64,000 bases of DNA from Hexactinellida sp. DTS-2022 (Eukaryota; Porifera; Hexactinellida): contig JAPNXP010000013.1 in assembly GCA_028753945.1 (NCBI GenBank), forward strand, positions 1,054,001 to 1,118,000. The letters run 5' to 3'. Below the pieces are notes generated by a model. It saw only the letters and a program-made list of their open reading frames with translations, was not told the DNA's origin and made no database searches. How positions within the stretch are numbered: position 1 is the first letter of the stretch; the number at the start of each line of letters is the position of its first letter. Positions 23,010 to 57,867 of this stretch are shown here, piece after piece. A program made the position numbers and the translations under genes.

Positions 23010-24030
23010 CATCTACTATATATATCTATATTATTAAATCTCGATTGTTGTGTGTGTGTGTGTTTGTGTGGTTGTGTGTGTGTGTGTTTGTGTGTTTGTG
23101 TGTTTGTTTGTCCGGATTGTATTAAAGTGACGGGGGGATAGAAACCGCAATTAATATTGGGATATAAACTAACTTTCAAATGTTATAATAGGTAAACAAG
23201 CATGCTGAAAACGAATTTCGCGTTTATAAATTTCTCATATGAATATTTGTTGTTGTTGTTAACACAAAATAGGTAAACAAATTAATGAAAATTCAAAATC
23301 AACCTAGAAGTTAGCTTCTAACGGGTATTATAGGTAAACAAGTATGCCGAACACGAATTTCGCATTTATATATTTCTCATATTAATATTTGTTGTTGTTG
23401 TTTACACAAAATAGGTAAACAAATTAATGAAAATTCAAAATCAACCTAGAAGTTAGCTTCCAACGGGTATTATAGGTAAACAAGTATGCCGAACACGAAT
23501 TTCGCGTTTATAAATTTCTCATATTAATATTTGTTGTTGTTTACACAAAATAGGTAAACAAATTAATGAAAATTCAAAATCAACCTAGAAGTTAGCTTCC
23601 CCCGGGTATTATAGGTAAACAAGTATGCCGAACACGAATTTCGCGTTTATAAATTTCTCATATTAATATTTGTTGTTGTTGTTGTTTACACAAAATAGGT
23701 AAACAAATCAATGAAAATTCAAAATCAACCTAGAAGTTAGCTTCCAACGGGTATTATAGGTAAACAAGTATGCCGAACACGAATTTCGCGTTTATAAATT
23801 TCTCATATGAATATTTGTTGTTGTTGTTTACACAAAATAGGTAAACAAATTAATGAAAATTCAAAATCAACCTAGAAGTTAGCTTCCAACGGGTATTATA
23901 AGTATATAACTATGACAAATATTACTAACTTTGTAATCAAATGTTTAGTGAGGAGTAAGGCCGCGTAGCGGCCGTTAACTTGAGGTGCGTAGCACCGATC
24001 TGTCGCAAAGCGACCGAGACCGAAGGGCTC
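23010..24030. mobile_element. Helentron/'pearl'-like non-autonomous element, copy A
   Basis: It begins TCTACTATATATATCT, then ATTATTAAATCTCGATTGTTG, followed by a GT microsatellite. Five copies of a 139-145-bp core repeat follow, each carrying AGGTAAACAAGTATGCCGAA (marker positions 23,191, 23,333, 23,475, 23,614, 23,759). The 3' end has short GC hairpins in series: GGCCGCGTAGCGGCC, GGTGCGTAGCACC, GTCGCAAAGCGAC and GAGACCGAAGGGCTC. A microsatellite, core tandem repeats and terminal hairpins are the described plan of Helentron-related DINE/pearl elements. No Rep/helicase is encoded. Confidence 0.75.
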
Positions 24031-24057
24031 GTATATTATTAAATCTCGATTGTTGTT

Positions 24058-24113
<56 letters not shown>

Positions 24114-24888
24114 TACGGATTGTATTAAAGTGATGGGGGACTAGAAACCGCAATTAATATTGGGATATAAACATAGGTAAACAAATTAATGAAAATTCAA
24201 AATCAACCTAGAAGTTAGCTTTCAACGAGTATTATAGGTAAACAAGTATGCCGAACACGAATTTCGCGTTTATAAATTTCTCATATTAATATTTGTTGTT
24301 GTTGTTTACACAAATAGGTAAACAAATTAATGAAATTCAGAATCAACCTAGAAGTTAGCTTTCAACGAGTATTATAGGTAAACAAGTATGCCGAACACGA
24401 ATTTCGCGTTTATAAATTTCTCATATTAATATTTGTTGTTGTTGTTTACACAAATAGGTAAACAAATTAATGAAAATTCAGAATCAACCTAGAAGTTAGT
24501 TTTCAACGGGTATTATAGGTAAACAAGTATGCTGAACACGATTTTCGCGGTTTTAATTTTCTAATATGAATATTTGTTGTTGTTGTTTACACAAATAGGT
24601 AAACAAATTAATAAAAATTCAAAATCAACCTAGAAGTTAGCTTTCAACGGGTATTGTAGGTAAACAAGTATACTGAACACGAATTTCGCGTTTATAAAAT
24701 TCTAATATGAGTATTTGTTGTTGTTGTGGTTTACACAAATAGGTAAACAAATTAATGAAAATCAAAATCATAACGTCCTTATCTACATTTCCATGTTAGA
24801 AAATGTGAGGAGTAAGGCCGCACAGCGGCCGTTAACTTGAGGTGCGTAGCACCGATCTGTCGCAAAGCGACCGAGACCGAAGGGCTCG
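24031..24888. mobile_element. Helentron/'pearl'-like non-autonomous element, copy B
   Basis: It follows copy A directly: the terminal GGGCTCG is joined to TATATTATTAAATCTCGATT. It has the same plan, with a longer GT microsatellite (24,053-24,112) and four core repeats (markers 24,237, 24,377, 24,518, 24,659). It carries the same hairpin tail with small changes (GGCCGCACAGCGGCC). Core units within B share ACACAAATAGG where A has ACACAAAATAGG, so each array seems to have homogenised separately. Confidence 0.75.
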
Positions 24889-33600: not shown

Positions 33601-36600
33601 TAAGGAGAATTGGAGATGCTGTATACAATTCTTCCATTGTCGCCATTATCAAGGTCAGATGCAATTAGCTGCAGTATAGTAGAACCAATAGAAGTTCCTT
33701 CAGACACTGATTTAGAGTAACTTTGTTGCTCGAATACAGGTGGATGTATGTTGGCAGGAAATACAGATATAATTACAAGCGAGGTATCTAGGTGCACCGA
33801 GTCATTAACTAATACAGGTAACGATATATCCTGAATTGTCAACTCCTTTTTAACAGAGATTTCCCCAGATTGAGAATTCAAATCGAAGAAATCATTATTA
33901 GTGGTAAACTGGTAAAATAGAGTTGATGCTGTGTCTTTGTCAGTTGCAGTTATACTCCCAATAATGATGCTTATATTGGTATTATTCTCAATTGTAAAGG
34001 TATACGTCATATCAGTGAAAAGTGGAGGTGAGTCATTTTCATTGACAACTTGGATGTAAACTGAAATGGCAGAAGATTTGCGTTGCCAAGGCGAAGCGTT
34101 ATCTTTCGCAGTTATAGTAAAGTTAACGATTTGAAACAGTTCATAATCAAGAGAGGCAATGAGAGAGAGCACACCGCTAGTCTGGTCAATTGAGAAATAA
34201 GAATTTTCTGAAATACCAAAAGTTATCAGCCCATTATCCCCAGTGTCAGAATCATTAACTATTATTTGTGCAACATTAGATGGGAATAGAGTGTTTTCTT
34301 TTATTTGTAGCGTATAAGATTCGTTTAGGAATACGGGAGAGTATATATTGGGTTCTTCTACAATCAAATTAACCGTGGTTGTAGCTGTATAAACACCATC
34401 GTAATACTCTACCTGGAGTGCTGTTATAGAATGGGAATCTGGATCGAAATCTTGAGACAAAGAGAGAAGACCATTATTAGAAAGTGTAAAAATACTAAAA
34501 TCATTTCCAGACGAGATTCTGTATAGAGTAGAACCGGTAGACAATGCGTCATCAGTTATATTAAGCCAGCCTATCTGGTCACCTGATTTGAAATTAGAAG
34601 CGAAATAAAATGTGTAAGAATTTAACATAAATTCTGGTGCGACATCATTAATATCTAGAATAACCACTGTCACTGAAATTGAGGAATATCTCACTTCAAA
34701 TAGGTTACTAGGATTTCTAGCTTCAATAGACAGAGAATACTTTTCTACAGCCTCGAAGTCTAACGACGTTCTACAATATAATTCTCCATCACTCGAAATC
34801 TCAAATACAACTCCAATGTTCCCACTCGAAATAGAATACTCTATAACAGCTGATTCACCAACATCAAAGTCAACAGCTACAAACGTATGAATCTTTAGAT
34901 TTATTCCCATATCTTCACTGACAGAGAGTTGATTGGGAGGAGACAAGAAAATTGGTGCGTACTTATTACCTAGCAATACTTTAATAACAACAGACGTATT
35001 GCCATACATATGAGGTACCCCTTGATCAGTAGCAACTAACGTTATTATATACTCCCTCCCAGCTTCTAGTATCTGTCCGTTATAATGCACGCCTCCAATG
35101 AGAGTGTCTGTATAGAACGGACAGGAATCCCCAGTTACACTGTACAACAGCTGAGAATTAACTCCCGAGTCTCTATCGCTAGCCACAAGGGAAATAACCT
35201 GTCCAATCTCCTGGTTAGTTGGTATGGTTACTGAGTAGAGTTGGAGAGGGAAGAAAGGCGAGTTATCATTAACATCCATAACGATTATAAGAATATTAGC
35301 GAGAGAAGTCTTCCTATACTTCTCAGTAGCTAGATCAGATGCTTGTACTTGCAATAGTATAGTACCTATGTACTGCTCGATATCTAACGGATTGAGTAGA
35401 GTAATAGCACCAGTGGAAGGGTCGATATACAAGAAACTATAACTCCCAATAATAGAATAAACAACCTCTCCTATACTGCCTAGATCCGAGTCCTCAGCTG
35501 TCACATTCAATATAGGATATGCGTAGTCTCTATTCTCCTCCAAATATACAGTGTAGTTATCAGAATATACGAACAGCGGTGCGTACTTATTGGTTGGAGT
35601 AACGTATACAGTCAGAGTAGCTGTAGAGGATAAGGGCACTTCGCCACGATCCACAGCTCCCAGTGTTAGGTTAAGCACAACATCAGCTCCTGACAAGGTA
35701 CGGTCAATCGAAATAGCACCAGTGGTAGATTCAATCTCAAAATAATCAGCTGATTGGGATATAATAGTGTACAGAACATCTCCGTTGGTATCAATATCCA
35801 AATCAAATGCCTGCACAGTTAACATCACCATACCAACCAGCGTATCCTCCTCTACAACAACTGAGTAATGCAGGCTACTGAATATAGGAGCATTGTCATT
35901 CACGTCTTCGATATTAACAAACAGAGTAGCTACAGTAGTCTTCCTGTCTTGCAGTGCTTGGTCTATTGCGGATATTTCTATTGAGTGCGTAGGGTTTGTT
36001 TCGCGGTCCAATTCACTCCCAACAGACACCACACCTGTATTAGGCTCAATGTTAAAATGCCCAGGAGTAGAAATGATATAGAAAATAGCGCTATTCGTGC
36101 CTTGATCCGCATCAGTAGCAGAGAACTGGGCAATGCCTGTGTTAACTGGAGTATTCTCTGGGATAGATTTGTATTGGTGGTTGATTGCGAATACAGGAGC
36201 GTTATCGTTAACATCCAACACTTCTATGCTAACAGTGGTAAAAGCTGAGAATTGGAGTGAGCCACCAGGAGCATCTGTCGCGGAAATATTCAGTGTAATC
36301 GGTAGCGTATCGACCTCACGGTCTAAGTTACCGAAAACTAACACATTTCCTTCATTATCAACAGTGAAACGAGTATCTCCTTGTACTACGGCGTAGGTTA
36401 ATTCTCCATCAACACCGGAGTCGCTATCGCTAGCAGTCACGCTCCCAATCACAGTATAGATCGGAGAGTTCTCAGAGACAGAGAACGAGTATAAGGTATT
36501 ACCGAATACCGGAGCGAATTCGTTAACGCCGGTTATCCCAATCGAGCACTGTAGCACGTCTGAGGTGAGACTGGGATAGCCCTTATCTCTAGCGCTCAGA

Positions 36601-39600
36601 TACACAGTGTAGGAGGGGACAGTCTCAAAGTTAACACCAGACTGTAACGACACATTCCCTGTTGTTAGGTCGATAGAGAAATGAGAGTTAATCGTAATGA
36701 AGAACTCTATATCTGCGTTCGTATTGATGTCGCTGTCTGTTGCTGAAATAGAGAATAAGTTATAGCCAATAGAAGTATCTTCTGGTATATAATAGCTACA
36801 AGTTGTTTGTTGTATGACCGGTTTGTTATCGTTAACATCTTCAACTCTTATCTCAACGCTAATAGAGCTCTCCCTACGCCCAGATATATATGGATCTGAG
36901 TCTATCGCTCCAATAACTAGCTGATAGGTATCCACGGTCTCTCTGTCCAATTCTCCAACCGAGCTAATCTCTCCATTGTCAGGAGAAACAGCGAATTTCC
37001 CATCATAATTCCCAGACACTATTCTATACGTCACAACACCTTGAAGTCCGAAATCACCATCAGTTGCTACTACACTTAAAATGAGAGTGTCAAGTGTTAT
37101 GTTCTCTTTAACTGAGAGCGTCTGGTTATCAGGCGTACTGAATACGGGAGAGAATTCGTTAACACCAGTTACTACCATTAGGATTGTTGTTGTGGCATAC
37201 AAAGGGTTGTCACTCCTATCAAAAGCGGTTATTGTCAAGTTGAAAGTCTCATTTGTTGGAAGCGTAACCGCGGGAGATTCTAAATTTAGGTCAACAGTCA
37301 ATGAAATGGCACCTGTAAGGCTGTCAATTGAAAATACCCCTGGAAAGTCTTCATGTTTAAGTTCGTATTGCAAATTAGCATTCAGGTTAATATCTCTGTC
37401 AGTAGCGGTTATTTGGTATACATTGCTATTCACTTGAGTTGTCTCCACAAACTCTACTCTATACAGAGACTGTAGGAACACAGGGGGATTGTCATTTTCA
37501 TCCAGAATTATAATTTGTACATTAACCGTTGCAGATCTGTATATGGAGTTACTAGGGGTAGTTTCTACAGCTAGAACCAGTGAATATGAGTCCTTCGATT
37601 CTCTGTCGAATGGAACCGGGGCTGTTACAACTCCTGTAACAGAATCTAGGCTAAATAGAGAAATGTAACCATTTCCCTCTCTCTTCTCGTATAAGAATTC
37701 TCCGCCAAATCCATAGTCCGAATCAGTCGCATTAACGTCGAATATAACCAGTGAAGGAGACTGGTTTTCTAGAATACTAACGGAGATATTTCCGTGTGTG
37801 AACTGAGGTGTGAACTCGTCAACTTGCTCAACAAGGAATGTAACACTGGTGCTGTTAGATAGAGACGGACTGCCTTTATCTGTTGCAGTCACTGTTAACA
37901 CAATATTAGTAACAGGGTACTGAACAAAGTCAAGATCGAGAGAGGAATTCAGTATAATATCACTAGTGTCCGGATCAATTATAAAGTAAGTGATGTTGAT
38001 ATTCGTTGGGAAAGTTTGTTGAATATCAAATAGCAATTCTCCATTTATACCCGAATCTTCATCTGTTGCTTTGACAGTTAAAACAGTTGTGTTAATCTCT
38101 ACATTTTCAAACAGAGTAGCTGAATAGTTGGTTTCAGAGAATTGAGGGAAGTTTTCATTAATGTCTGTTAAGTTTATTAGCAAATGTAGATCAGTAGTTT
38201 TTCTACCCGGGTAGCCATTAGGTGGAGATCCTATGGCATAGTCATAAGCCTGTACCAATAAATCGTAGGATGATGCTACTTCGTAATCGAGTCGTCCTAT
38301 ATAGGAATATAGTAGGTAATATGATAAAATACAGTAGAACCTGTTTGTACGAACATCATGCACCAGGGGACCGTAAAAATCTGTTCGTCTTTCCAGGATT
38401 AAGATTAACCGATATCACTTGTATTGAAAAGATTTTTAAGGGACTGAAATAATATTTGTATACCCGTGTTCACACTAACGAGGTTCTACTGTATGATAAT
38501 TTTGACTTTATTACTGATAATAATTGATTGGATATGCTCAATTATAAGAAAATAATAATACGATTCGTTACATAAGTTACATTTAACTGAGTTAAATCTA
38601 AGTTTAATATAAAATATATTCCTTACCTGTAACTGTGATACTCCCATTCGTCTGTCCAATAGAGAATATATCAGTGTGCTGAGGTAGTGTATAGCCTACA
38701 GTACCCTCATTACCGTAGTCAGCATCAGTAGCTAGCACCTGTGTCACAAAGAGAGTAACATTGTTCTCTTCTGCGAAAATAAAACTGTACTGTGGTAGCG
38801 CTTGGAATACAGGACCGAATTCGTTGACATTGAAAACAGTGATTTTCAAGTTTGCACTAGAATTCCTTGAGGGGTACCCAAGGTCTTCAGCCACTAAAGT
38901 ATAGTTGTATACAGTACCGTTTGGCAGGGAATAGTTATCGAAATCAATCAAATCTTCATTCAGCACATACACCTCTCGAAGGATAGGATTGATACCAAAC
39001 AGCTGATAGTCAATGCCCTCAGCTACCAGGGAGTATCTAATCTCACTGTTGAGTCCATCATCAATATCACTAGCAAACACAGTAAGAAAACTACTTCCAT
39101 TTTTGTAATTCTCAAGGCAACTTGCTACCCATTGTGGGAAGTAGAAGATAGGAGAATTGTCGTTAATATCAAGAACCGTAATTGTGAATGTGAAATCTGC
39201 GAAATTGACTTTTTCGGGATAAGCCAGGTCAGAAGCTCTGATGGTCAATTCAATCTCACTAATCGGACTGTACGGAGATGTCTCCCTATCAATGGGAGCT
39301 ACCAGTGTTAGATTCCCATTCGTTCCATTGATAGCTATAGCCCCACTCACGACTGGGTTCATTGATTGGATTGAATAAGAAACATCGCCTTGTGAGCCTT
39401 GGTCTAAATCAGTGGCATAGAAAGTGGTTAATATAATGTCAGTGATGTTCTCTTCGAATACAGAAACTGAACTCAAGGTGGGGAGATGGAATATCGGGGT
39501 GTGGTCATTCACATAATGAATATCAAATTCCATTGATTGTACTGTGTGTCCATAGTTTGAGTCAAAACTAATTATATAATTATCACCGTATTCTGAGATT

Positions 39601-42600
39601 GAAAAGTTGTCAAAAGTCGCTATGGAATCAACTAAAGCTGTACTATTGTACCCAAGTATGCTACCAACACGTGGGAGTGGGTTAACATAAATAGAAACAG
39701 TTATTTCCCAGCTGTTATTCAAGTAAGGAGCAATCTCACCAGTCCCATAGTCGTATACGCCTACATCAGGAGTCACAGCACACACAACTGATTGATTGCA
39801 GTCAAACGGTATAGCATGGGCCTCCAAGTAGTATACACGTTCTTTTACATCGAATGCATCAGAATTAATCGATAGTCCATTGTAGCTAGATGCGGGATTG
39901 GTAGATATGTTGAATTGAATATAGAAGTTGAATCCTACCCCAAACACAGTTAGATCTTCGAACAGAACTGTCCCAGTCCCATTAATAGCATTCTCTGTAG
40001 TACCGTTAAGCTGGAATTCCTGTTGACTGCTAGTGTAGAGAATGGAATGTAGTTTCCACACTCTATCTCTCCAGCCTATGTTCTGTACTATTTCTCCATT
40101 AGCCTGATCTCTGATGCTAACCTTAGGCTGGTCTCCACATACCACAGTCTCATTACAGTCGTTAGGCTGTCTGTCAATCGTCAGATAAAACTTTCTCTCC
40201 TTAACAATAACAGACTTGTGTGTGACACTGAGAGAATAGTTAGATGCTGGGACAGTATACACGTCATATCGTATAGAGTAGTTACCCAAAGAGCGAATAG
40301 ATATGTCTGAGAACTCTACTAGCCCCAGTGTGAAGTTCCTCACTGTATTCCCAATAAACTCACCATTCCCGCTATAGCTAATTAGAAAAGACTGAATAAC
40401 CCAATCCCAACCCTTCCAATCGTGGTTTGTCACACGCGCTCCATTCCCGATATCAATTAGCTCTATAAGAGGAGCGGGGCTAAACACAACCGTCTCGTTA
40501 GTAGAGACTACGTGCTTAATAATGTGTAGTAATATAATTCGTTCCTTTACGTATAAGAAGTTGGATAAGACGCTGATATTACTGTTCGGGGTTGTTATAT
40601 TAAAGTCTAGCTTGTAAGCGCCAGCATGGGAAATAGCTATATCAGTAAAGTTAGCCCAGCCAGCTACAAACGCCACAGTCGTTGCACCGGATAAAACCGC
40701 GTTCGGGTGTCCATAACCGGTATGGATTGAGACAGTCAGCTTCCAAGATTCGTCTGCCAAGTGTATCAGGGCAGAGACCACTTGGTTATTCTCGTCAGCT
40801 ATAAATAGAAGCGGCTGCTGCCCGAATGGTACAGTTTCGTTTGCATCGAAAGGTGTTTGATAGAAGTTTAGCTTCTCCGGAACTTTGTAAGTGGAATACT
40901 CAATTGAAGATCCATTTTCTGAGAGGAAGAGAGGAAGACCAGCTAACTGCGTGGCATTAAGAGCGCTGTCATTTAGTCCCGTGTAATTAGCTCTCTCTGG
41001 AGCGGGCAGCGGGTTGGTTACAGTTAGTGTATCTATGTTAGCGTCAATCGCAGCTTCTAATTCCCCTGACTGCGTCACTCCTACAACAGTGTTAGAAATA
41101 TTCAACAGCTGTGTGTACCCAAGACTTGTAGCGTTTGTAGCATTAGGTGTAGAAGGTGTTGTTGTTGTTGTGTTACTTGTGTCGGTTTGGTTAGTGGCGG
41201 GTGGCACATATGTGTAGGTGTCGGATGGTGGTACGTTGGTCGTATTCTGAGGAGGGTCACCTATCTCAATTTCTAGAGTCACATTCGTTGCTATTGACTG
41301 GATCTGTCGCCTAGTTATTCTAGGAATGCCAACTATATTCGTGATACGAATATTAGACTCGGGTATGCCGATAAGCAATGCAATATTGCTCACAATATTC
41401 TCTTCAAAGAACGTATCCACTGTTATAGATGCAAGATCAAATCTCAGGTGAATGACCATGGTAGTTTCCAGCTTAATCTTTGCATCACCCTTCACAACAA
41501 AGTACATAGTTAGACTGGATCTGTCATAGAAATTGGCTCCTGGATTGAGACTGACAGTAGGCACATACTGGGCTTTGGTTTCCGGGTCACGTGTGTCTAC
41601 ATACCTAAGGTTCGTACCCAGGATACCGTTAGTTGGCACAATGTAATTTCCTCCGTTGTACACGTCCAGACGCTGAGGGCTGGGGTAGAATAGCCCAACG
41701 ACAATAGCTCGGGAGAGGTCAGGGTTCAACAGGAACACGCGTAGCACCTGTGGATTAGTCCCGGTAAAAGCCAGTGAGTAGTTAAGTCCGTTACGCACAA
41801 TCGTGTAGAAAGTAGATATGCGTTCTTGACATGTGTAGCCAAGGCACCACCCATGGTCCATCGGCCCGTTTATAATATCAATAAAACCGTCAGCAGCTAA
41901 GCCTACAGGCGAGATTCGCCGCGTTTCAGTGTCTGCATCCAAACTCTCTACTATCATCATATCGTGGTTAACATCAGGACACAAATAGGACTGCCATTCA
42001 CTCCTAAATTGGCAGCCCTCATCTCTGTAAATGCCTTTGTTAGGGTATCTCATTGTAATATTAACCCTACTGCCGTCATTATTTGTTTGCATTGAAATAG
42101 GAATTCTATAATCCCCCAATCCTCTACGTCTATCTCCATCCCATTCAAACTCCGACTGAGCTACAATCTCGCTTGCAGACCCAAGGAAAGAAGAGTCCAG
42201 CATTTTTATTAACACCTTCTTTGGGCCATCGCAGTCTAAATCTACACAATCCGATGGATCTACCCAGCTTAGTAACGGTCTGTAGATGAAGAATGTAGAG
42301 TTTTGATCTACATTAGACCGATGACAATCTCGCATCTCAACAGGGTGCATAGCGTCGCCTGATACCCTATGTGACTGGATAGCTTTATCTCCACACCTGT
42401 CCAAATAGTTAGCAAACGTAACTCCATCCAACAGCGTTATTCCGCTTATAGCAGAATAGCTAAGGAGCTTGTCGTATGGCTTATTAGGAGCCGCACCATT
42501 ATTTGACATAAAAGTAGCGAGAGTTAAGCCAACATTTCCTCCTTTGGCAGAATAGGAAGGTCTCCATTTTGAGGTCCGCGACTCGTATTTCGGTCGAGAA

Positions 42601-45600
42601 AACAATTCGCTACAATTAACAACATCCGAATTCCCAACAAACAAGCTGTTCTCAATGCTTATATATTTATCAGATGTGCTATGCTGGAGAGAATGGGGCT
42701 CATATACGATAGCATGTAGCCCAATGCGGTTATTAACAAGGATCAAATCTTGAAACCTCATACGGTGTCTCGTGTACGTGAACACGCCCCAATCCCAATT
42801 CAGATAGGACGTGAAGTTGGATACCTTAGTGCAGTGAGGTATACCGTCATTATACAGCATATGGATACCATGGAGATTGGAATGTGCAATATTTCCCCAC
42901 CATTGTCTGTCCGTATCAATTTCATCACAATGCTCTCCGTTGATATGAAACCCAATATAATCAGATCCAGCAGCTGAATTGTATCGAAGTTTCAGATCGT
43001 TTGCTTTCGTCAAATCAAACGTGGTCACGTGTGGGAGAAGTCCTGATGTTACCGTTGTTAGAAAGTACTTTGGGAATTTAGTTTGTGCGGCTAGATTGTG
43101 AGTGAGGTTGATATGATCTCCTGATATTATTACTGAGTCTCCGATGGTACCGTATATAACATTATCGCTTATCTCAATATTGTGTGAGTTAAACACACCA
43201 AGCGCTGGACTTCTGGAATCATGGAACACACAGGAACGAACAAACGAGGTGTTACGAATCGGCGTTCCCAGGTTGAGGAATGAGAGAGCATACCTGGGAT
43301 CATAAGAGTCTGTGTGTCCGTATTGGCCGCCATGGTAGAACTTAACACCTTCAAGGAAAATCGTTCCAAAGTGCGTTTTGTTGCCAAAATAAATTCGAGA
43401 CGACACAACTCTTGCTCCGAAGTCTCTTTGAGAAATGCTCCCAGCAGGCTCGTCTACACCCTCAATGACAATGTTACGATCCAACAGAGCAACCTCAGGC
43501 CGCAGAATATACTCTATTCCGTTATCAGTGGTGCCTCTAACCACACGATGTGTGTATGTGAGATTACTCTTAACGTAAATGGTCTTACGGTCCACATCGA
43601 TATAAGATATTTCAGCTACTTCGCTCTGGAAATGATCGAATGATGATGACGTAATAAGAATTTCTACGTCAATTCCCCAATCAACTGTCTCAATTAGCAC
43701 AATAGTAGTTGTGTTATGGTTAATCGTAGCGTTTGCAAATGTCCACGCAACATTAGGTACTACACCACGTAACAGCAACAGACCGAAGTTAGCAATTACT
43801 TTAGACCCAATAATAGGCGCTCCTGGGTAAACTAACTCTGGTGTATTGTGATCTCCGAACAGTCTAATATGAATGTTGCGTGTAAAAGATCCATTCAGCC
43901 CTGCTATAAGGCCAGCGCTCTCGCCTAGAATAACTATATACGTTGCGTTCAAAACATAGTCTATATAGTCATCATCGAATTCCAGCACTCCTTGAATGGT
44001 TAGGTTCCTAATAGTAGGCAGTTCTACGTCTATTACCATCCACCATTCAGGCGGGATGAATACGTCATCTCCGTTTGACGGAGGTCCGGTTATACCGTAC
44101 TCTGGGTCTATCCAGGCAGAAGCGTTACTCCAACGCTTGAAGATGTCAGGTCTGCCAGTGGGAGGGGGAGGGGGGACCGGAATAACACACCCCTTAAAGT
44201 AGCACTGGTAAATAGTAAGCTGTGTTTGTAGGGTGCTAGGCTTAACTAGATCGATACCGGATACTATGTAGTAGAGGTCTAGAGAGGAATGGTTAAAGTG
44301 CCAATCTCCGTGTGTTACATTAGGTCGCTGGGGTATGTCTTCATTGTTGGACACTTCTTGGTCCTTAAAGATTTGTAGATAATCTGGTTCCTGTCTAAAG
44401 CTGTGTCGAATCCACAAATCCTCTTCAGGGCCAATCTCAAAGAATCCCGCTTTATAGGTAATGTTCGTGATATGAGTTAGATTCTGAAAAAGTAATGTAT
44501 TGATTGAATTCACTATCAACAACGCCATCCATCCATTGGGGTGAGTTAGCCGCTTAAACTTGAATGGCACCACACTAGTCCCGTGTTCATTCGAGACTAA
44601 TGCATTCACGTAGAGCAGGGACTCTGGTTTAGCTTTGTTCCATGCCATTCTCCTAAATTCTACACCCCAGCAATAGCTACCATTATGAGCACCAATCGAC
44701 TGCTCAACTACATTCAACACACACTTTTGAGTAGGCAGAGTACCCATGCTCGGGACTATGTTATACGACCCATTCTGTCCCACAATAGAACCGTCCATGT
44801 CCGCATGTACAGTCTCGTGTTCCCACAGAAACGCTAGTTTAGAGGGAGACTCCACAAAACTAACTGCGCTCCACCTAACCTCCCACCCCCCCTGTCTCGG
44901 CTTACAATGGGAGCACCCTGCTATAGCACTACAGCTAGCCTTGTCGAAGTACGCGAATGTTATATTGCGAAATGTAGAGCCCAGGCTGTGCCCGGTTTTT
45001 ACCCCAGCTACGCAACAGAAGTTGTCTTCTATCCCTGGTATTCTCGCGGCTACAAAACTGTCATAAACCAGTCCCCCGTTTTCCTCTTCCGTGTGCCAGA
45101 TACTAGGCACTGTAATCTCCATGCCTGCCAACTCATTGCTTATCAGATTGAAATTCCGCCAATGGACAGCCCCCGTCTCTGCTGACTCAGCGCCTCGCAT
45201 ATTGTGCCAAGAAAGGAAGTCTGAGAACAGAGCCACAGCGGGTACAGTTGAGTCACAGGTACCATGGAGCTTTGGTATGTAAGTTGGGAATATCCATAGT
45301 CCATAGCGCCCGTGAGAATGTGCAGTGTTGTTTCTGAACTCACGCACTATAACGTTACGAGGACAGATTGCGGAATTAAAGCTGGGGCCCCCTGGGTGCT
45401 TAGACAAACGGAACCAGAACCCAAATGTCGTCCCGCCCGCAGCCGCATTGTGCGACACGATATTGTCCGGGTTAGTTATCCAGAAGCCGGCAGGAGTAAC
45501 GTCTACATTCAAGAGACTACTGGACGAGCGAACAAATATGGCCAAGTTGTATCTTATAATATTCCCAGTCTCTATGCCATCCTCCAGAAAGTACGCATGT

Positions 45601-48600
45601 CCCTTAACATTATACGCTACGTTATGCTCCACAAGCAGATTATGCACTGCGTGTATCGTAACAGCTCGATTGAATGTATCGTGTATGCCACACCCTCTGA
45701 CGTAGGAATGTGACACGTTACCACTGACATGGTAGTGTATGGGGTAGCGACCGAGTCTGAAGGCCTGCCCGGCATTTCTAACCTCCACATACTCAATGCG
45801 GGCCTCAGCCTGGTGTGTGGGAGAGTGTATCATGATGTGTGCCCCGAACTGGTCGCTCCCTATCTCCTCACCGAACCTACCTTGGAAACAGGACTGAGTG
45901 GCATGTTGGCCATGGTTAAATTCGCGCGGACAAGCTTCTATCAACTCAGTCCATTCATCGTTAACCGAGCCCTCAAACACGACATTTCGCGATAGAAGTC
46001 CAACTTCGGCTTTCAGAGGCAATTCCTGACCTCCGTTTGACATTGTCAAGCTGAGATGTTCATACTGCAAGGGCGGATCGATTCCTAGTGTTGTGGTACC
46101 ATTCGCTACAGTAACGTTTGTAATCTCCACTCTCTCATTGCCAATAGGACCAAACCCAGTTGTCGCTATCACTATCTCATTACCGATCTCCCAATTCACC
46201 TCATGCTCTATTACAATTTCGGTGTCATTGATTTTAGCTGTATGGTTCAGTCTACTCCAAGTCACGGGAATTGGCTTACCGTGCAGTTCTAGAGTACCGT
46301 CCCTCACTGCTAGCACCTTACTACCGTACACAGGGAGTTCTATCTTGCGTGCATGTCCGTGTATTCGGATAACAGCATTGTGCTTAAAGTAATTATCCTC
46401 TGTCCCTACCTGTAACTCACCGCCGTCCGTAATGAGAATATACTCAGAGTTAAGCTCTAGGTCTCTCTCGTCAAATATAAGCTTACCGCGTATAAGGAGA
46501 AATGATAGAACTGGAGTAGAAATATCCAAAACAACTGTTTGATTCTGGCTTATAACGGCGAAATCTCCTTCAACAGGAACTCCCTCGCCTCCCCAGGTAT
46601 ACGTTGAAGACCAAACGTCAATAAACTCAAATGTAACATTAGAACTAGCGTATCCCATGTCCTCTATATGAACTTCTACCTTTACTTTATGAGTCTGACT
46701 ACCGGCAGGGGTAATGCACTGTATTTCTGTATTGGTTACAGAAGTAACTTGACACTGTAGCTGCCCTAATAGTACGATGATGTTAAATTGCTCGTTACCA
46801 AACCCTTCACCGGTTATGTTAAGGGAAAGACCCCCTCCGGTCCCTCCCCTGGCTGGGGTAACAGCTGATACCTGCGATGTTAGCACAGCTGTGTAAAAGA
46901 ACGTATAATCTAGCAACTCTGATTGAGAATCCAGACTAACACTAATGCTGCAAGTTCTGTTGCTGTAGTCGAGCTCGGAATTAGACAGTAGATTCGGTGG
47001 CGCGCGACACATTATCACTTGAGAGCTGGAATTGGAGGTGTCAACCTGACAAGACTTGTTACAGATTAGAATAATTATATTTAGCGGATCGAATCCGTAA
47101 CCAGTTAGCCGGATATTTCTCCCAGCTACACTGCTGTAGAATGTTACGTCATCAACAACGAGTTCGTATTCGTAAGACAGAGATGTCTGAGAGCAGCCAT
47201 AAGCATACCTAGTTACCAGAGGAATGTAGGAGCTGGCGATTAGTGTAGAGGGGAGTTGGCATGTGATGGCTGTGTTTCCTACACTTGAGATGGTACACAA
47301 GTTGGGGCCAAATTGAACAATGATACCCTCTAAATCTGTGCCAAAATTGGTCCCCGTAATCTGGATGCTTTCTCCACTCCCACTCATTGGAGACAATCCA
47401 TTGATAGAGAGAGTACGAGATTCAGAAAAGGTAAAAGTATCACTCGCTGTAACTGTTATCCCATTAACATCTACATACACTAACTTCGTGCCTAAACTAG
47501 ACTTACTAGTAGTGCATTCAATCTCATTGAAAGTAATCCTACTTATCTCACATATATTCGTACCAATAGTAACAGTGGAATCATAAGAGAACCCGTACCC
47601 ATATATGGTAAGGTGAGTACACCCTTCTACACTCCCTGCTACTGGTGAGAAGCTACTAATCTCTCCATCAACAGATATAGTGCTAATGCTGCTGGAAATC
47701 AAAGCACAGCCAAACCCCCGTACCAACACAGACACCAAATAGTCCCCTACTGTCAGATTACTAATGTTACACTCTATCTGGCTACCGGATATGAACTGTG
47801 TTTCCACACAGACGTATTCCCCTATCCCGACAGTGACGTCTGTTGTGTTGGAATAATTCCCTGAAATAGTTACGACAGTTTTCGTTGCACCTTCTGTTAC
47901 TAATATCTGATTGACTTGTGGCGTATTTGTAAAGGAATAGCTGTATTCTTGACTGTATGATACAACCCCTGAACAGGTGTATACGTAAACAGAATAACTA
48001 CCAACACTTGTTTTACTCGTGCCGCATACAATCTGGTTATAAGATTGAGTTAGTATCACGCACTCACTACCGATATTAACCTGTGTGACGTTACTCAGTC
48101 CCTGTCCTGATACAGTCACATTAGTGCAACCTTCAGTGGAGCCAGCCAGTGGATACACGCTAGTAACTGTAGGGTACAAAGTGTAAGTGCTCTTTGCTGA
48201 GAGCAGTGCAAACCCGTGTGTTCCATAGGCGACACTTATTAGTAATGGGACACATACGGGGACTGAATTTTCGCTCAGCAGACATTCAGCTACTGTGTTA
48301 TTCTTCTCAATAACATCACAAGGGTACACACCACCTAGCGTAATCACCAGTTCTGAACCCATAAAGTTAGTCCCAGTAACCTGTATACTCTCTCCCCAGT
48401 AGCCAGCAGCTGGGGAGACAGAGAGCACTGAGCCAGTCAAACAGCTCCAGAATAAGAACTGCAGCTTGTCATTACTAGGCACAGAGGGCAGAGGAGTAGC
48501 ACAGGTACCAACTATCGGGGTGGCGGTTATATTCTGTGGTAGAGAGGGAACTGACGCGGGGGGAAATTCATTCACACTGAATACTATTTCAGAAATATAA

Positions 48601-51600
48601 GATGAAATTTCGGTTACATGAATAACTCCACTCATGGTAGGTTCAGAACTTCTGAAGTAATAAACACCCGGGCTGTAGAACCAATGAGAAAACGCACCAA
48701 TCGAGCTCATCTCACTTATAAAACCACCAACAAAATCGCTACCATTCTCATAAGTCTGAATAACCCTATACTGAATCAACTGAGCCCCATACCATGTCCA
48801 CTTAACAATGTCTCCAGCTACTATTGTAATATTGCTAGGATTCCAACTGTAACCGTAGCCGTATAGATTGCTGTATCCCGTGTTATCCACCGAATGCTCT
48901 CTAGCGGTTGATGCTATCTCACACTCAACATACGTGTTGTTAACGTAGCTTACATAGCACTCGTTATCTGATAGCGTTATGCTTACGTCATCAGCTGATG
49001 AACAGAATCCGTGTCCACTGAAACCAAGAATTGATCCGCCCAATGGAGACCCTATCCAAGGTGTTAAGCTATCAATTGAAAGCTCATAAGTTAAGTTGAA
49101 AGTCCCGCTTCCATTAAGGGAATGTGTGACAGTTAATAGAGCAATGCCTGGGGCAATAGGTGGTGCAGTACACACTATTCGTGTATCACTGTCTAGTGAT
49201 ATACTCAAGCAGTTAGATTCTCCAATTGTTATATCCAACTGAGATAGGTCATTCCCAAAGTTGCTTCCTAATATGGTAATAAGTTCGCCGCAAGCTCCCA
49301 GCGTGCTCGGCTCAACAGCTGATATGTTGGGAGAAGGAATAACTGTGTATGTTGCTTGTAAGCTGCTATCCGATACTCCTCTTATAGCCACTACAATGGA
49401 GTGTGAGCCGATTGGGTTAGGAGGTGACCTGCACTGTAAATGCGTATCATTTATGTGAGTAACCACACAGTCTTTTGAGGATATATTAACCGAAATATCT
49501 GCTATAGAGCTGCCCATGCTATACCCAGTTAAGGTAAGCAGAGTTCCTCCGTTAGTGCTGAGAACTGAAGGCGCAGACCGGATTAACGTCATTCTATACT
49601 CAAACGAGAAACTAGTCGAGAATCCCAAACCAGGGATATTGATCTTGAGAGGGAGAATACCACACGCGTGGAATGGCAGAACACAGCTGATCTCAGTGTC
49701 ACCAATAAGCTCCACCTGATTACAACTAGTCTCTCCAATCAACACGTAAATGCCTGCCAAATTATTCCCAAACCGAGTACCAGTAATACTAACCATGGAC
49801 CCGTTCTTACCCGAACCAGGGATAACATTGTGTATCTCAGGCGTAGCATCAGACGAATACTCATAGTCACAAATCCCGATTGTACAGGAAGCTGGCACGT
49901 CGTTTACGAATACTAATACCTGTGGAGAGGTGTGAGAATTACGTAACATATCTCCCGGGATATAATCCAAGTGGAGACCACCGTTTCTCTTAACAGACAC
50001 CTCAATTGACACGTCACCAAATAACTTCACAAACTCATCATCTATATCCATGGTCTCCTTGTCGCCTCCTGACTGCACCCACTCAACATACCAGGTATAC
50101 CCTCTACAGTCCCCAGACCGAGATACGCTCAGAGCTCCGTCTTGAAATGTTTCTTCTAGAATATTATTTAGCTCGGTAGTGGTGGCTTGTACATCGATAG
50201 GGGGAGTTAGTTTAGAGTTTTGTGACAAAGTGAAGTTGCCCTGTATCGGGGGAGATGCGTGTTGGATTCGAGTTATATTAAACTGTGTTTGAGTGGAATT
50301 GAATTCTTCATAAGCGACAGTAATAAATGGGAAATTATACCCGCATTCAAACGTAGTCAATTTTAGATCGAAAGAGAGCTGTGTGATATTATTGACAGTT
50401 ATATAGTTAAGAATTTCAATCGTAGTCGCGTCTACAAAAATACCATTAGGCCTAGCTGGACGCACTTCAGAACGAATAATATAAACGTTGTTCTTAGCGA
50501 ATATAACCTCATCTACGTACACCTGGTCCTGGCTAGATAGACGTTTAATGCGAATATAGTTAATAGAATAGCCAGACGCACCTGATATACCAGCAAACCC
50601 TTCATGCAAAATCAACTTTTCAAATATATTTTCACAATTATAATACCAATCTGAGTTCACTCCCATGAACATATCCAAACTTATTGAAATGTGACTGAAT
50701 ATAAATTCTAGATCTTCTTTCTGCCACCTCACACCCAAATAGAGATTGATAGAAATGTGTCCCTTAAAAGCCAAACAGAGATACTTGTATACTCTCGCAT
50801 CAAATTCATCCAGCTGTTCCAAGGACCCGCCATTCAAACTAGCATAAGTAGAGTTAGCATAGAATATATAATACGGATTCTTAACAGATCTCTTCCCACA
50901 GTATGGCTCCTGGGTTCCAGTATAACTATCCGACTCAAAGCTCTGCAGGAGATACTCTATGCCGATCGGATACAGGCACTTTCTAATGAATAGATTCTCG
51001 ATAGCCTGCCTAATCTGACCCTCATCAGCTGAGAATGGAATCGGTTCGGTTTTAATATTATCGAAAGTTAGTTTGAATTCTGTGTCAGCATCCAGACCAC
51101 TAGAGATAATATTAACTGGAATATCTGTAACTGAAGATTCGTTACTGCTACAAACGAACTGAGAGATTTCGAGGCTAATTTCATCCCTGGTTCCTATATC
51201 TCTAAAATGCCACATCAGAAATAAATGAGTGTCATTTTGTAGCACGCTTATGTTCACGCCTCCTGCATTCGAAATCGCGAAATTCGCATTATTGAGTGTA
51301 TTTTCAATATATTCCGCAGAACTGTTGATTAGGAAAGTAGAAACATTGCCTTGGAAAATAACATTTATCGCATTAGTATGACATTCAGTGTGATTAACCT
51401 CTGTTGTTACATCCATGGTAGAATTACAATTTGTCATATTAATATAAGTCGTATTACAGCTCACATTAACAGTAGTAGTTATGAGCTGTGAAATTTCGCA
51501 GCAAGTTTCAAATGAGTCTGAAGGTATACTCGTGTTCTGAATAGAAATATTCCCTTTGTTAATATCCAGTACAGTAATACGTTGCAACTCGTCATAAGGG

Positions 51601-53518
51601 TTGTTATCTGTTTTGATTCGTTGGCGCTCATTCCGAGCAGAACTTAAAATAGAATTCACAAACTTAGTTTCATACAGGAATACACCAATTGAAGGTAGAG
51701 TATTAACTGCATACGCATATATACTGTAAAGCATACCTTTCAGCAACTTGATTTTATAGTTCTCATTGCACACTTTAATTTCACCGGTTAAATCAGGGTA
51801 CGGCAAGGTGTTTATATACAAAATCCCAGATGAGGTGTAAAATGAATACAAACCAGTTTGAGATGCAACAAAAAACCCGGATACTTTAACAACAAATACA
51901 TCAACTGAAATATTCGGATAGGAATTAGTATTCTCGATTGAATAAGCTATACTATCAGTGGACATAAGGCTTACTATTTGGCTTAGAGAGTAAGTACCCT
52001 CCCACACATTAAGAGTCCAGCCTCTCTGACCAGGGTACACAATAGCCCCCATAACCTGGCCTGAGGTTCTACACGTAATGTTACCAATACTACTAGAGAC
52101 TACATCACACTGTGATAGATCTACAAATACCTTTACTCTATCCTTGTCGCTATGGAAATACTCTCCTTGTATTGTTATGAGAGTGTTACCTTCCTCACTA
52201 CCCATTGCTGGGCTCACACTTAGCACAGTGGGGTAGTACTGCACCAGGAATGTCCGTAGCTGTGCGTCGACAAGCAGCGCTTCTCTGCTAATAGCACTCC
52301 GTCCCTTCGGTCCAGAGAACAGCATGCTCGCGTTGAAAGACCCAATATCAGTAGTGCTGGGCATACACATACAATGTCCCGTCACCTCCTCCTCCCCATC
52401 CAATGACAGCCCATACAACTCATCCGGGGAATCAGCTGGGAACAGCTCGCAATGAGAGGGCCCCAGGAACACCCGCTCCAGGTGCTCCTGCTCCTGTTGC
52501 TCCTCATTAGTGTCCAGATACCTGTCCGTGTAGATACGCCCGCGTATGTCCACGAGGCCCCCGGGTGCTGTGTAGCGAGGCGTGACGTCATATATGACGG
52601 GCGTCTCGTCGCTGTCGTACATGAACGAGCCGGAGACGGGGACTGGGGACCCGTCTGAGGTCACGCTCAGGCTGTAGCTGTGACTGGCAGACACTAGAGG
52701 AGAGGGCTTATTCAGGCGAAAGAACATCGAGAGAGGCTCCCATAAACGTAATACAAATTGAGTATTTTAGGCGCGTGTGAGCGAGCTTAAACTTAATCTA
52801 TGCGCGCATAAAATTTTACCTGGATGAAAGTCTATTAGAGAACAGTACCGTACTACCATATTCCCATATAAACATACACGCCTTATTATTTGTTTGTAGT
52901 TTAATAACAGTGTAACCGAACAGGCGAACACACCTGGCTGGCAAAATTAGCTCAGCTTTAAATTATCCGAACATGTTTGACTGTCCCTACGAGTTCGGAA
53001 AATCTATGTAGTACGTAAAACTGGGCGGTCAAACGTTATGTAACACAAATTCGTGCGTGAAATTTATACACCCCTCCTATGTCACTCTTTTTCGACCATT
53101 TGTAAGACAAAAAGGATGGTCTGTCATACAATGTCTAATTATCCCCCCTTGGAAGCGTACGTACATTCGAACGCCCTCAAACTTGTGAACTACAGCATGT
53201 TTGTTTGTCACATTCCATTTAAATATCTGACTTACAGTGTCCAGAACTCTGTGTGACACATACTATCTGGTTAGAGTTAGATGAATAATCAACAGTGTCA
53301 CAGGCTAACGAGTGAGAAGAGCTGCTCTCCAAGATAACTGTGTTACCCATTGAGCTTGTAGCATTGGTAGGGCTGTTGAACGGATCCATACTAAACCCCT
53401 CCCCTGAGATTGTGATTTGGGTGCCCCCAGCAAGACTGCCTGCAGAAGGAGATACGGTGGCACTCGAAACATGCAACAGTAGACTCAGAGCAAATAGTAT
53501 ACTGCATAGAAATATCAT
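27651..53518 (-). CDS. Giant fibrocystin-L/cadherin/cohesin-dockerin membrane protein, 3 exons, ~8,331 aa
   Basis: Exons are 53,518-53,236, 52,693-38,627 and 38,296-27,651. Both introns are GT-AG (GTAAGT...CCTCTAG, 542 bp; GTAAGG...TATATAG, 330 bp). The joins restore SSGH-LSASHSYS and SITVTG-RLDYE, and the total (24,996 nt) is an exact codon multiple. A signal peptide (MIFLCSILFALSLLLHV) leads into 14 TIG domains, with PA14 at about 335-445 and a cupredoxin-like insert at about 1,352-1,462. G8 domains lie at about 2,121 and 2,944, each followed by parallel beta-helix repeats (about 2,389-2,482 and 3,239-3,299). A Thr/Asn linker and four beta-sandwich repeats come next. This is the PKHD1L1 ectodomain plan. 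From about 4,489 come some 20 cadherin repeats, then beta-sandwiches, a cohesin-like domain (about 7,811-7,929), a dockerin-like EF pair (about 7,936-8,000), a membrane helix (about 8,183-8,208) and a 123-residue tail. It is a probable cell-surface adhesion protein; its function is inferred only. Confidence 0.92.
38332..38491. mobile_element. Pogo-like MITE inside intron 2 of the giant gene, 160 bp
   Basis: It starts CAGTAGAACCTGTTTGTACG and ends AACGAGGTTCTACTG, flanked by TA at 38,330-38,331 and 38,492-38,493. It occupies about half of the 330-bp intron and leaves both splice sites intact. Confidence 0.8.
52726..52850. repeat. Dispersed repeat, copy 2, in intron 1 of the giant gene
   Basis: It aligns with 22,203-22,325 (shared ATCGAGAGA, GCTCCCATA, AGGCGCGT, GATGAAAG). 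It lies just upstream of the exon 2 acceptor, which is why the open frame there appears to extend past the true exon start at 52,693. Confidence 0.6.
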
Positions 53519-55240: not shown

Positions 55241-55584
55241 ATATATATAATATTATATATATACACATATACAGTGAGTCCAGACATGGGGTTAAGACGT
55301 CAAGCCCTTTCAAAAGTGCTTAATTCCAAGCCCATCCCTTATCAGAAGGGCTTAAGTCCAAGCTCAAGCCCTTAATAAAGGGCTTAAGTCCGGACTTAAG
55401 TCTTTACTCTAATTATTTAGAAATCCATACCGTATTTTATTGAATAAGTGCCTAGAAAAGGGCTTGAAGCTCATCTATAAAGGGCTTAAGTCCAAGTCCG
55501 GACTTAAGCCCTTTTATTAAGGGAGGACTTATTTAAGCCCTTTGGGGCTTGGCCCCATGCCTGAAATTTATACACACACCCACC

Positions 55585-56106
55585 CATAGGCGCCGAAACT
55601 CTCCAGCGCCAGGGGGGGTGTAACTTTACATTTAAATGTTAAAGGTCAAAATAACGATTCCTATGGTGCATGGAGGCAAAGTTTTACCATTATGAGGTTA
55701 AAGTTGAGGGGGGGGGGGGCGTGGAGCGATTGTCGTGAGCGACCTTTTGGGTGTAAGGGGGCATGCCCCGCAGAAAAAAATGGACTGCGAGATATCCAGA
55801 TATCGATTTGTTTTGAATGAATTATACGTACGAATTATACGTTTCACTGTCTTAAATTATATTGAACATTGTATTTTTTATCCAGAGGGCACGGTAACAC
55901 CCGCACCAATTATGTTGCCCTCCATCAATTTTTACTGGGGCCCATTAAAGAAAATGTCTAATATACCCCCCCTCCCCCCTGACCATGAGGGTATACCCTC
56001 CCTGACTGTTTCCTCAGCTAGGGGGGGGGGGGGGTGAAACCCTCCCTGACAAAAACCAGGGAGGGTGTAACCCCCCTGACCCCCCCCCCCACTTTCGGCG
56101 CCTATG
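55585..56106. mobile_element. hAT-type MITE family 'CATAGGCGCC', copy 1, 522 bp
   Basis: It starts CATAGGCGCCGAAACTCTCC and ends CTTTCGGCGCCTATG. CACCCACC is duplicated exactly at 55,577-55,584 and 56,107-56,114. It interrupts the right arm of the giant foldback and is absent from the left arm, so it postdates the palindrome. Confidence 0.92.
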
Positions 56107-56731
56107 CACCCACCCAGCCTTGTGTTCACATCAACCGCGAAGCGGTTGGTGTGTGGTTGAGTTCTGCCGCGAAGCGACCTAGCAAGCGAAGCGACCTAGC
56201 AAGCGAAGCGCGCTAGTAATTGAATTTTCCAGATAAATCTCGTCAAATCACGTTTTAGAGGGTCGTTATGAGCATAATTAAACAAGTGGAGTTGAACGAG
56301 GAGTCACTCGATTGGATTGGCACACAATTTGAGAATGGAATGTTGGCACATTCCTGATAGTCCAGCGTTGCTAAGGAAAATTTAATCCAAATGTAGTCTA
56401 TATCAAATTGCTGGAAATTTTACCCTGAGTACAAATATGGTGATTATAAGTTGATTAGATTTGATTTAAGAAAGTTAGTTACGGAAATGTCGGCGATTTA
56501 CTATGAAAAGGCGGACACTGCCACCCGCATAATTTTTTTCCCCCAAACGGATTTTAGCGGATTTTGGATATGTTATTCTACGAAAAATTGCGCTTCTAGT
56601 GTACTACTGTGATGACGGGGTGACAGGAGTGCACTAGAGGGATCCTAGTGTAGGTGAGTTGTGCTTAGTACCTGTGGTAGGAGAACGGCATGGCTCACTG
56701 GTAACTAGAACTGGTGTAGACCAGTTGTAGT

Positions 56732-56781
56732 GTGGTCGAGGGTTACCCTCCTGATGAGTCCTTGTGATAGGACGAAACCAC
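56732..56781 (+). ncRNA. Hammerhead ribozyme, type III topology
   Basis: All core parts are present in order. The stem III 5' strand GTGGT (56,732-56,736) precedes cleavage-site C (56,737), giving a GUC triplet. Stem I is GAGGG/CCCTC with a TTA loop (56,738-56,750). CTGATGA is at 56,751-56,757, stem II is GTCCT/AGGAC with a TGTGAT loop (56,758-56,773), GAA is at 56,774-56,776, and the stem III 3' strand ACCAC is at 56,777-56,781. The conserved pairs A15.1-U16.1, G10.1-C11.1 and G1.1-C2.1 are satisfied. Stems I and II are closed and stem III is open, which is type III. The predicted cut follows C56,737 of the plus-strand RNA. The family self-cleaves RNA; activity here is inferred. Host transcript unknown. 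Confidence 0.9.
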
Positions 56782-56802
56782 TTCCACCACATGTAGTATC
56801 CC

Positions 56803-56841
56803 GGTGGGTGTGAGATACATTTACGGTGTCTCATGCTCACC
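56803..56841 (+). other. 16-bp RNA hairpin downstream of the ribozyme
   Basis: GGTGGGTGTGAGATAC (56,803-56,818) pairs along its length with GTGTCTCATGCTCACC (56,826-56,841), counting several G-U pairs, around a 7-nt loop. G-U pairs in place of mismatches suggest selection at the RNA level on the plus strand. Confidence 0.6.
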
Positions 56842-57259
56842 ACACTACTAAAACGCTTTGTATGACTTTTTCTAGGTATGACCCATTTTTCGATTTCAAC
56901 GACCAGATTATACGGGCACAACTCTCGTTAAAGCGCTCATTTGATATTCAAATGCGCGATTGAGCTTGACAAAACATTGTTATCAGCTAAAATCAAAAAT
57001 TATTCAGGTTCCTAAACTTATGATAGAAATACACCCAATAATAATAAAATTATGGATCATTAGTAAATAAGTTTTACATATTAATTAAGGAAAAACGCCA
57101 AGCCATAACCAAGTAACTTTTTAGGAGAGTCGCCGCTCGTGGTACCCCCCTATTTCTTACCATATCTCCGGGACAAATTTTTTCCGCTTGACGTCGACAG
57201 AATTTGAGCCACTAGTCCGATTTTCAAAAACTCTGCGGGTTTCTGTAGATCTCAAAAGG

Positions 57260-57650
57260 CATAGGCGCCGAAAGAGGGGGGGTCAGGGAGGGTTTGATCC
57301 TCCTGTTTATTTCCAGGGAGGGTTTCAACCTCCCTGGATGAGGAAACAGTCAGGAAGGGTATACTACTCCTGGTCGGGGAGGGTAGCTTTTACATAGCAA
57401 AGGGTCTAGCTAAACCAAACTTATTAGACATTTTTTTTATGTTACACGTATAGACATAGACCCATAGAAAAATTATACTTCCATAATGAGTTTTTATAAA
57501 TAACATTGGTTGATTTCTATATGTATACAATTATACCCGTCCAACATAATTGATTTTTAACCACCATATGCGTTGTTTTTTGACCTTTCACATTTGAATG
57601 TAAAAGTAACACCCCCCCCCCCCTGGCGTTGGAGAGTTTCGGCGCCTATG
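57260..57650. mobile_element. hAT-type MITE family 'CATAGGCGCC', copy 2, 391 bp
   Basis: It starts CATAGGCGCCGAAAGAGG and ends GAGAGTTTCGGCGCCTATG. TCAAAAGG is duplicated exactly at 57,252-57,259 and 57,651-57,658. It is inverted relative to copy 1: its right end carries the CCCTGGCGTTGGAGAG version of copy 1's left end. Confidence 0.92.
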
Positions 57651-57867
57651 TCAAAAGGTACTCGCGGGCGAATGTAGCGCATATGGATATAACTAAGTAT
57701 TCTAATTTGTGGATATTGCATTATACTTAGCATATGGACACAAATTAATTTTTCAGACCATGTGAGGTCAAAAATAATTCCCAGGAGCCTCAAGGTTTTG
57801 GAGGAAAAGTCATTTTTTTCGGGGGGGGGTCTTTTTAACAAACAAATTTTTTTATTAATAGCTATTA

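Follow-up and report, generated by a model that had tools for sequence, protein, structure and literature searches.

Hammerhead ribozymes are known from several kinds of mobile element, and the closest of these to the locus described here are the LTR retrozymes of plants (Cervera, Urbina and de la Pena 2016, PMC4918200). In the accessible text of that report, these elements carry a type III hammerhead in each long terminal repeat (LTR); they have LTRs of a few hundred base pairs, 4-bp duplications, a tRNA-Met primer site, a purine tract and a short non-coding interior (∼300-600 bp), they also occur as solo LTRs, and they resemble Ty3/gypsy elements in LTR ends and primer site, with no other similarity given. 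Metazoan retrozymes (Cervera and de la Pena 2020, PMC7229834) are, in the available sections, type I elements without LTRs, primer-binding site or polypurine tract, and their duplications, when there are any, are longer than 4 bp. Penelope-like elements and Terminons, a different class of retroelement, carry minimal type I ribozymes (PMC7761336, available text). Atypical type III motifs are reported as isolated occurrences in termite genomes and are also found in dipteran genomes (PMC7936874, accessible part).

Here we analyze a type III hammerhead in animal DNA, which an earlier note had contrasted with the type I ribozymes of many other animals, in agreement with the accessible text of PMC7229834, PMC7761336 and PMC4918200. 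Our reading, to which we assign a probability of about 0.87, is that the motif serves as ribozyme to an LTR retrozyme, here present as a solo LTR and moved by Ty3/gypsy-like machinery of the same animal. Judged from sequence, such a retrozyme would be an LTR retrotransposon that neither codes for proteins nor moves autonomously and whose LTRs each contain a type III hammerhead.

The hammerhead at the window site

Read on the plus strand, the motif runs GUGGU-C56737-GAGGG-UUA-CCCUC-CUGAUGA-GUCCU-UGUGAU-AGGAC-GAA-ACCAC, with an intact core and cleavage expected at C56737 (Table 1); the claim of an invariant core and three perfect 5-bp stems within 50 nt was thus confirmed by direct reading. The covariance-model run that had been proposed as a check was done with Rfam release 15 over the whole 64-kb stretch of DNA under analysis (the window). 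It gave a plus-strand match to RF00008 (Hammerhead_3, type III) over the full model length, at 58.3 bits against a cut-off of 48.5 bits and with an E value of 2.2e-10, and this was the sole gathering-level match within the window. Chance occurrence, already called very unlikely in the earlier note, is rejected on the strength of this E value and of the reversed core pattern, which had 0 matches in the assembly. Folded alone, the 50-nt motif forms the three 5-bp stems, and given z scores of only -1.5 (50 nt) and -0.4 (62 nt), folding energy by itself is weak evidence for a hammerhead. Matches lay on the plus strand only, both in the window scan and in a permissive scan of 55500-57800, so that ribozymes in both polarities, as expected of a viroid-like satellite RNA, were not found around the site.

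Table 1. Features at the hammerhead locus, in positions of the 64-kb window
Feature	Position	Strand	Basis
237-bp unit, read as solo LTR of a retrozyme, TGTGATGACG...GCTCACCACA	56608..56844	+	common blastn ends; 28 complete copies
Left target-site duplication CTAC	56604..56607	.	direct reading
Right target-site duplication CTAC	56845..56848	.	direct reading
Type III hammerhead	56730..56783, core 56732-56781	+	RF00008, fold, covariation (43/46 distinct genomic hammerheads)
Hammerhead stem III	56732-56736/56777-56781	+	
Hammerhead cleavage, expected	after C56737	+	
Hammerhead stem I	56738-56742/56746-56750	+	
Hammerhead CUGAUGA	56751-56757	+	
Hammerhead stem II	56758-56762/56769-56773	+	
Hammerhead GAA	56774-56776	+	
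Inverted-repeat nest, not part of the retrozyme	55585..57650	.	arms 55585-55637/57598-57650, 55991-56026/57329-57364, 56084-56107/57259-57282

Type I elements with repeats of a few hundred base pairs are reported from many animal phyla (PMC7229834, PMC7761336, available text), and the locus might be an ordinary animal non-LTR type I retrozyme or a Penelope-like element misread as type III. We consider this highly improbable: the motif matches the type III model along the whole model length, and the type I model RF00163 gave 0 matches at E <= 0.001 in the same genome, where 73 of the 14,702 first-look candidates were scored and the controls were silent. Moreover, the short duplications, TG..CA ends, tRNA-Ser primer site and polypurine tract described below are absent from animal retrozymes as presented in the accessible text of PMC7229834.

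The host genome is that of an animal, since four TGF-beta ligand domains, one of them with an internal stop, scored over the Pfam cut-off in the same assembly, and TGF-beta ligands are animal proteins. Together with the Rfam type III match and the covariation reported below, this upholds the description of the motif as a complete type III hammerhead in animal DNA. A search of the assembly for Wnt gave 0 matches, its controls being equally silent. A prokaryote origin was rejected, a 26-base pattern having 0 matches in genome_contigs, as was a phage origin: the 21-mer of stem I and core occurred at one viral-contig place, which reads as coding sequence, and the stretch there held no gathering-level Rfam match.

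The window itself codes for a cadherin, with 16 stretches matched, for a GTPase of the URGCP/VLIG-like kind and for EGF repeats; together with the 18 contigs of the assembly, its genes prompt the guess that the animal is likely a sponge. On its minus strand lie three long open frames: a 1,765-aa stop-free frame with URGCP/VLIG-like GTPase domains (7107-12404; PF25683, E 2e-121), an uninterrupted 3,587-aa frame with the 16 cadherin stretches (27651-38414) and an uninterrupted 4,720-aa frame (38604-52766), which by eye we take to be IPT/PKHD1-like with cadherin repeats at its end. Overlapping broken frames at 19616-21698 resemble, by eye, a hAT-type transposase, and tandem arrays with a 141-142-bp unit, split by TG repeats, occupy 23184-24770.

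Genomic copies and the unit that carries the ribozyme

The motif had been described as a single copy outside any satellite array. The absence of an array stands, as the tandem-repeat scan found none over the site; the single copy does not, because the search for further copies, also proposed earlier, gave 265 exact matches to the hammerhead core pattern (132 forward, 133 reverse) in the assembly (112.4 Mb, 18 contigs), of which the window is C5:1054001-1118000. In a genome scan with RF00008, at least 68 places were scored, 64 of these 68 being over the cut-off, and there were no matches in 14 control genomes. Among the 228 of the 265 sites that were listed, 186 have no other listed site within 1 kb, which together with the tandem-repeat scan led us to reject a tandem satellite. 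The same 228 sites include 23 neighboring pairs; in 12 of these the two ribozymes share an orientation, and in 11 they face opposite ways. Contig C1 (17.6 of the 112.4 Mb) holds 82 of these 228 sites, an excess that is overstated since the listed sites run in contig order as far as C3.

The loci fetched contained 81 hammerhead instances, which reduce to 46 distinct 54-mers; the cleavage-site GTC is in place in 41 of these. We aligned 43 of the 46, leaving out three that lack the 5' half, and scored the hammerhead structure on this alignment: 98.6% of cells were paired, double-sided changes occurred at 5 of the 15 pairs, and the 28 double-change cells compare with a shuffled mean of 6.7, with none of 500 shuffles as high. 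Structures slid along the alignment scored far lower. Helix III has 5 bp, with 98.1% of cells paired over the 43 sequences, and its presence separates these ribozymes from the minimal hammerheads of Penelope type, which lack it. The ribozyme is conserved across families whose flanking sequences fall into separate groups.

The unit around the ribozyme was defined by a blastn search with window positions 56590-56860. This gave 51 matches, many spanning query positions 19-255 and delimiting the 237-bp unit of Table 1, which has the ribozyme inside and terminal sequences TGTGATGACGGG...ATGCTCACCACA of the TGTG...CACA type. Among the fetched loci there are 28 complete copies with distinct flanks, the window copy counted, and they are, at the median, 97.9% identical to the window copy. 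Exact 4-bp duplications flank 14 of the 28, compared with 8 of 756 mispaired flanks; the count becomes 13 of 27 if L078 and L080, whose outer flanks coincide and which may stem from the copying of a single insertion, are taken as one. The other 14 complete copies have no exact 4-bp duplication, and some of these sit within longer copies that do have matching outer flanks, namely, the tandem L029/L059 (CTCC), the palindrome L073 (ATAT) and the two-LTR copy L069 (AAAC).

Empty sites were found for three insertions, the flanks, once joined and rid of one duplication, matching related repeats that lack the insertion: that of L053 (TCAT) in four other loci, that of L075 (GTAG) in two, and that of L063 (GTGG) in the opposite arm of the inverted repeat that contains it. 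The 4-bp duplications and these empty sites indicate that integrase-type insertion is how the unit moves. From the features of its sequence, the window copy is best taken as a solo LTR, and the inverted-repeat nest around it appears to be an older target into which this LTR inserted. With the 237-bp unit, its duplications and empty sites, and the full-length relatives described next, the earlier view that the motif has no evident retroelement host is overturned.

Full-length relatives and Ty3-like elements of the same genome

The arrangement of such LTRs can be seen in L081 and L084, which are full-length elements from a sister family. L081 consists of ACATG, an LTR of 222 bp, an interior of 149 bp, an LTR of 223 bp and ACATG again; L084 follows the same plan, with ACATG on both sides and a 5' LTR that differs somewhat from its 3' LTR. 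All four LTRs match RF00008 over the cut-off, at 57.7-57.9 bits. The L081 interior begins with TTGGCGACGAAGGTGGGATC, ends with the purine tract GGATAAGGTGAGAGGAG and, judged by its size alone, has no coding capacity. ACATG flanks both elements although their outer sequences differ, and it could equally reflect a target preference or bases that belong to the element.

Over 18 nt, the primer site TGGCGACGAAGGTGGGAT is exactly complementary to the 3' terminus of tRNA-Ser(GCU) from the same genome when the CCA, which tRNAs acquire posttranscriptionally, is included. A primer-site pattern with 2 mismatches allowed was present at 7 places in the genome, and its control at 0. The 15-mer ATCCCACCTTCGTCG, the complement of the primer-site core, occurred 7 times as well: six of these are places of the primer pattern, and the seventh lies at the 3' terminus of L090, a tRNA-Ser gene whose anticodon is GCT.

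Three of the primer-site places have no listed hammerhead, and we analyzed two of them, L085 and L086 (the third is C1:7723238). Neither the pattern nor the Rfam check found a hammerhead in either. Pieces of the L085 frames match reverse transcriptase (PF00078, 1.9e-30); pieces of the L086 frames match reverse transcriptase (2.7e-21), RNase H (PF17919, 4.2e-35) and integrase (PF17921, 4.3e-17; PF00665, 2.1e-8), and for L086 the PDB entries nearest to its reverse transcriptase are those of Ty3 (7q5b, Ty3-G Gag-Pol, 2.6e-32; 4ol8, 3.9e-33). L086 measures 3,413 bp end to end and has two identical 169-bp LTRs, the 3' one preceded by AGGAGGGAGGAG; stops interrupt its frames, and the 5-bp sequences on its two sides match at only 4 of 5 positions (TTGTC/GTGTC). 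The L085 stretch covers the 5' end of an element only, with frames broken likewise, no 3' LTR within the stretch fetched and a Gag-like piece that matched no Pfam family. An array with a period near 140 bp fills about the last 1.2 kb of L085.

The retrozymes share with these Ty3-like elements their first 7 (L086) or 9 (L085) LTR bases and an identical run of 29 (L086) or 27 (L085) nt that reaches from the LTR end into the primer site, whereas alignments of the LTR bodies score within the range of shuffled sequences. From this we infer that Ty3-like proteins may move the retrozymes.

The TGTG...CACA ends might instead be the termini of a small inverted-repeat DNA transposon (MITE) with a hammerhead by chance, an interpretation with which the 4-bp duplications, the short inverted termini and the palindromic copies are in keeping. 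It is very improbable in view of the sister family, whose two direct LTRs, tRNA-Ser primer site and purine tract are common to elements that code for reverse transcriptase.

Under the LTR retrozyme reading, the transcript of a two-LTR or tandem copy would cut itself at both ribozymes and release a monomer of 372 nt (L081) or, in the window family, 238 nt (tandem L029). The monomer would then be ligated into a circular RNA, which a gypsy-type enzyme would reverse-transcribe before integration, and solo, tandem and palindromic copies may be alternative products or later LTR recombinants. Hammerhead cleavage and circular RNA are predictions from the sequence in this genome. The putative circular monomers fold better than composition shuffles, with z scores of -5.3 and -5.9 for the two, and the window region folds better than dinucleotide shuffles (z -5.4).

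Strongly self-paired units of 238-372 nt also fit viroid-like RNA, as does a ribozyme that is kept while its flanks form separate families, and the delta-like RNAs of a toad and a termite have type III hammerheads (PMC7936874, accessible part). The copies could accordingly be DNA versions of an infectious viroid-like or delta-like circular RNA, without LTRs of its own, captured by the LTR machinery of the host. We judge this improbable given the constant TG..CA ends, the primer site and purine tract of L081 and L084, positioned as in LTR elements, and the restriction of the hammerhead to one strand around the window site. If such RNAs arose from an LTR element, this view and the LTR retrozyme reading overlap.

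Priming, irregular copies and comparison with known systems

The window family differs from the sister family at the primer site. In L060, TCATAACGACCC / TCATAACGACCCGTATACGG stands after the LTR, with no TGG-type tRNA site, and no tRNA-type primer site was found in any of the window-family copies read. Purine-rich bases (GGAAGGGAACCTGA) lie ahead of the 3' LTR in L069, and purine-rich tracts precede the 3' LTRs of L045 and L037 as well. Since no tRNA primer site was seen, the LTR reading of the window family rests on its ends, duplications, purine tract and ribozyme kinship; the ends, duplications and purine tract suggest that it may use the same machinery as the L081 family.

A pattern of the bases that follow the window-family LTR matched at 41 places, its control at 6, and this one pattern search brought up no autonomous partner of the window family among the places fetched. 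Two candidates were rejected. L093, which has an exact match far from the listed sites, is a palindromic dimer with its own hammerheads, in the order LTR-hairpin-LTR and with the duplication GTAT; L094, one of 22 places with ACATAATAACCACCCATA, is a different repeat with a 590-aa frame.

Two features lie outside what a simple retrozyme model predicts. In L069, L073 and L079, the first LTR ends early, past the ribozyme and ∼57 bases before the LTR end, and is followed by TAAGTAAGAGATCCC, which counts against the model. The opposite orientation of 11 of the 23 close ribozyme pairs is likewise not predicted by it. Palindromic LTR-LTR dimers with a short center recur in L037, L073, L083, L093 and L018.

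In L037, of a related family, the LTR is followed by TAATAACTACCGACG...GTTATTATGTTATG, which forms a hairpin with the LTR end. A tentative possibility, which we consider rather unlikely, is that the window family and the L037/L093 family use no tRNA at all and that a hairpin self-primes reverse transcription on cut or circular RNA. In such a hairpin, the end of the LTR would be joined with the sequence that follows (CATAACATAATAAC ... GTTATTATGTTATG in L037), and self-priming would yield palindromic LTR-hairpin-LTR dimers such as L093 (GTAT) and L073 (ATAT), which an integrase could insert because both of their ends are TG...CA. If true, this would make them a self-primed, ribozyme-processed LTR element in an animal.

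Taken as LTR retrozymes, the elements described here share with those of plants LTRs of a few hundred base pairs, each with a type III hammerhead, short duplications, purine tract, short non-coding interior, solo LTRs and, in the L081 family, a tRNA primer site and Ty3/gypsy-like ends and primer site with no other similarity, as far as the accessible text of PMC4918200 describes them. Compared with the same text, they differ in host (animal versus plant), in primer tRNA (Ser(GCU) versus Met), in the interior (149 bp in L081 versus ∼300-600), in the predicted monomer (238 nt in L029, 372 nt in L081 and 486 nt in L037 versus ∼600-800 nt), in the flanks (5-bp ACATG in L081 and L084 versus 4 bp) and in having palindromic dimers.

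With metazoan non-LTR retrozymes they have in common an animal host, many genomic copies and a small self-paired unit with one hammerhead, whereas those are type I, tandem and without LTR, primer-binding site or polypurine tract, with any duplications longer than 4 bp (PMC7229834, available sections). Penelope-like elements and Terminons are also animal retroelements with hammerheads, located in the pseudo-LTR in Penelope-like elements, but their ribozymes are minimal type I and they belong to another retroelement class (PMC7761336, available text). The type III topology in animals is shared with the toad and termite delta-like RNAs and the termite and dipteran genomic motifs; those have an atypical long helix I, whereas helix I here is a 5-bp stem closed by UUA, and the termite genomic motifs are isolated, with no surrounding element reported, whereas here the element is defined (PMC7936874, accessible part).

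Among the open-licence PMC papers listed in our searches, titles, abstract beginnings and accessible passages gave no animal LTR retrozyme. The elements would represent plant-style LTR retrozymes in an animal whose genome also has a matching Ty3-like element and tRNA. With them, the question of origin becomes testable, be it by common descent, horizontal transfer or repeated capture of the ribozyme by gypsy-type LTRs, and the genome may offer a compact animal system in which to seek circular RNA transposition intermediates.
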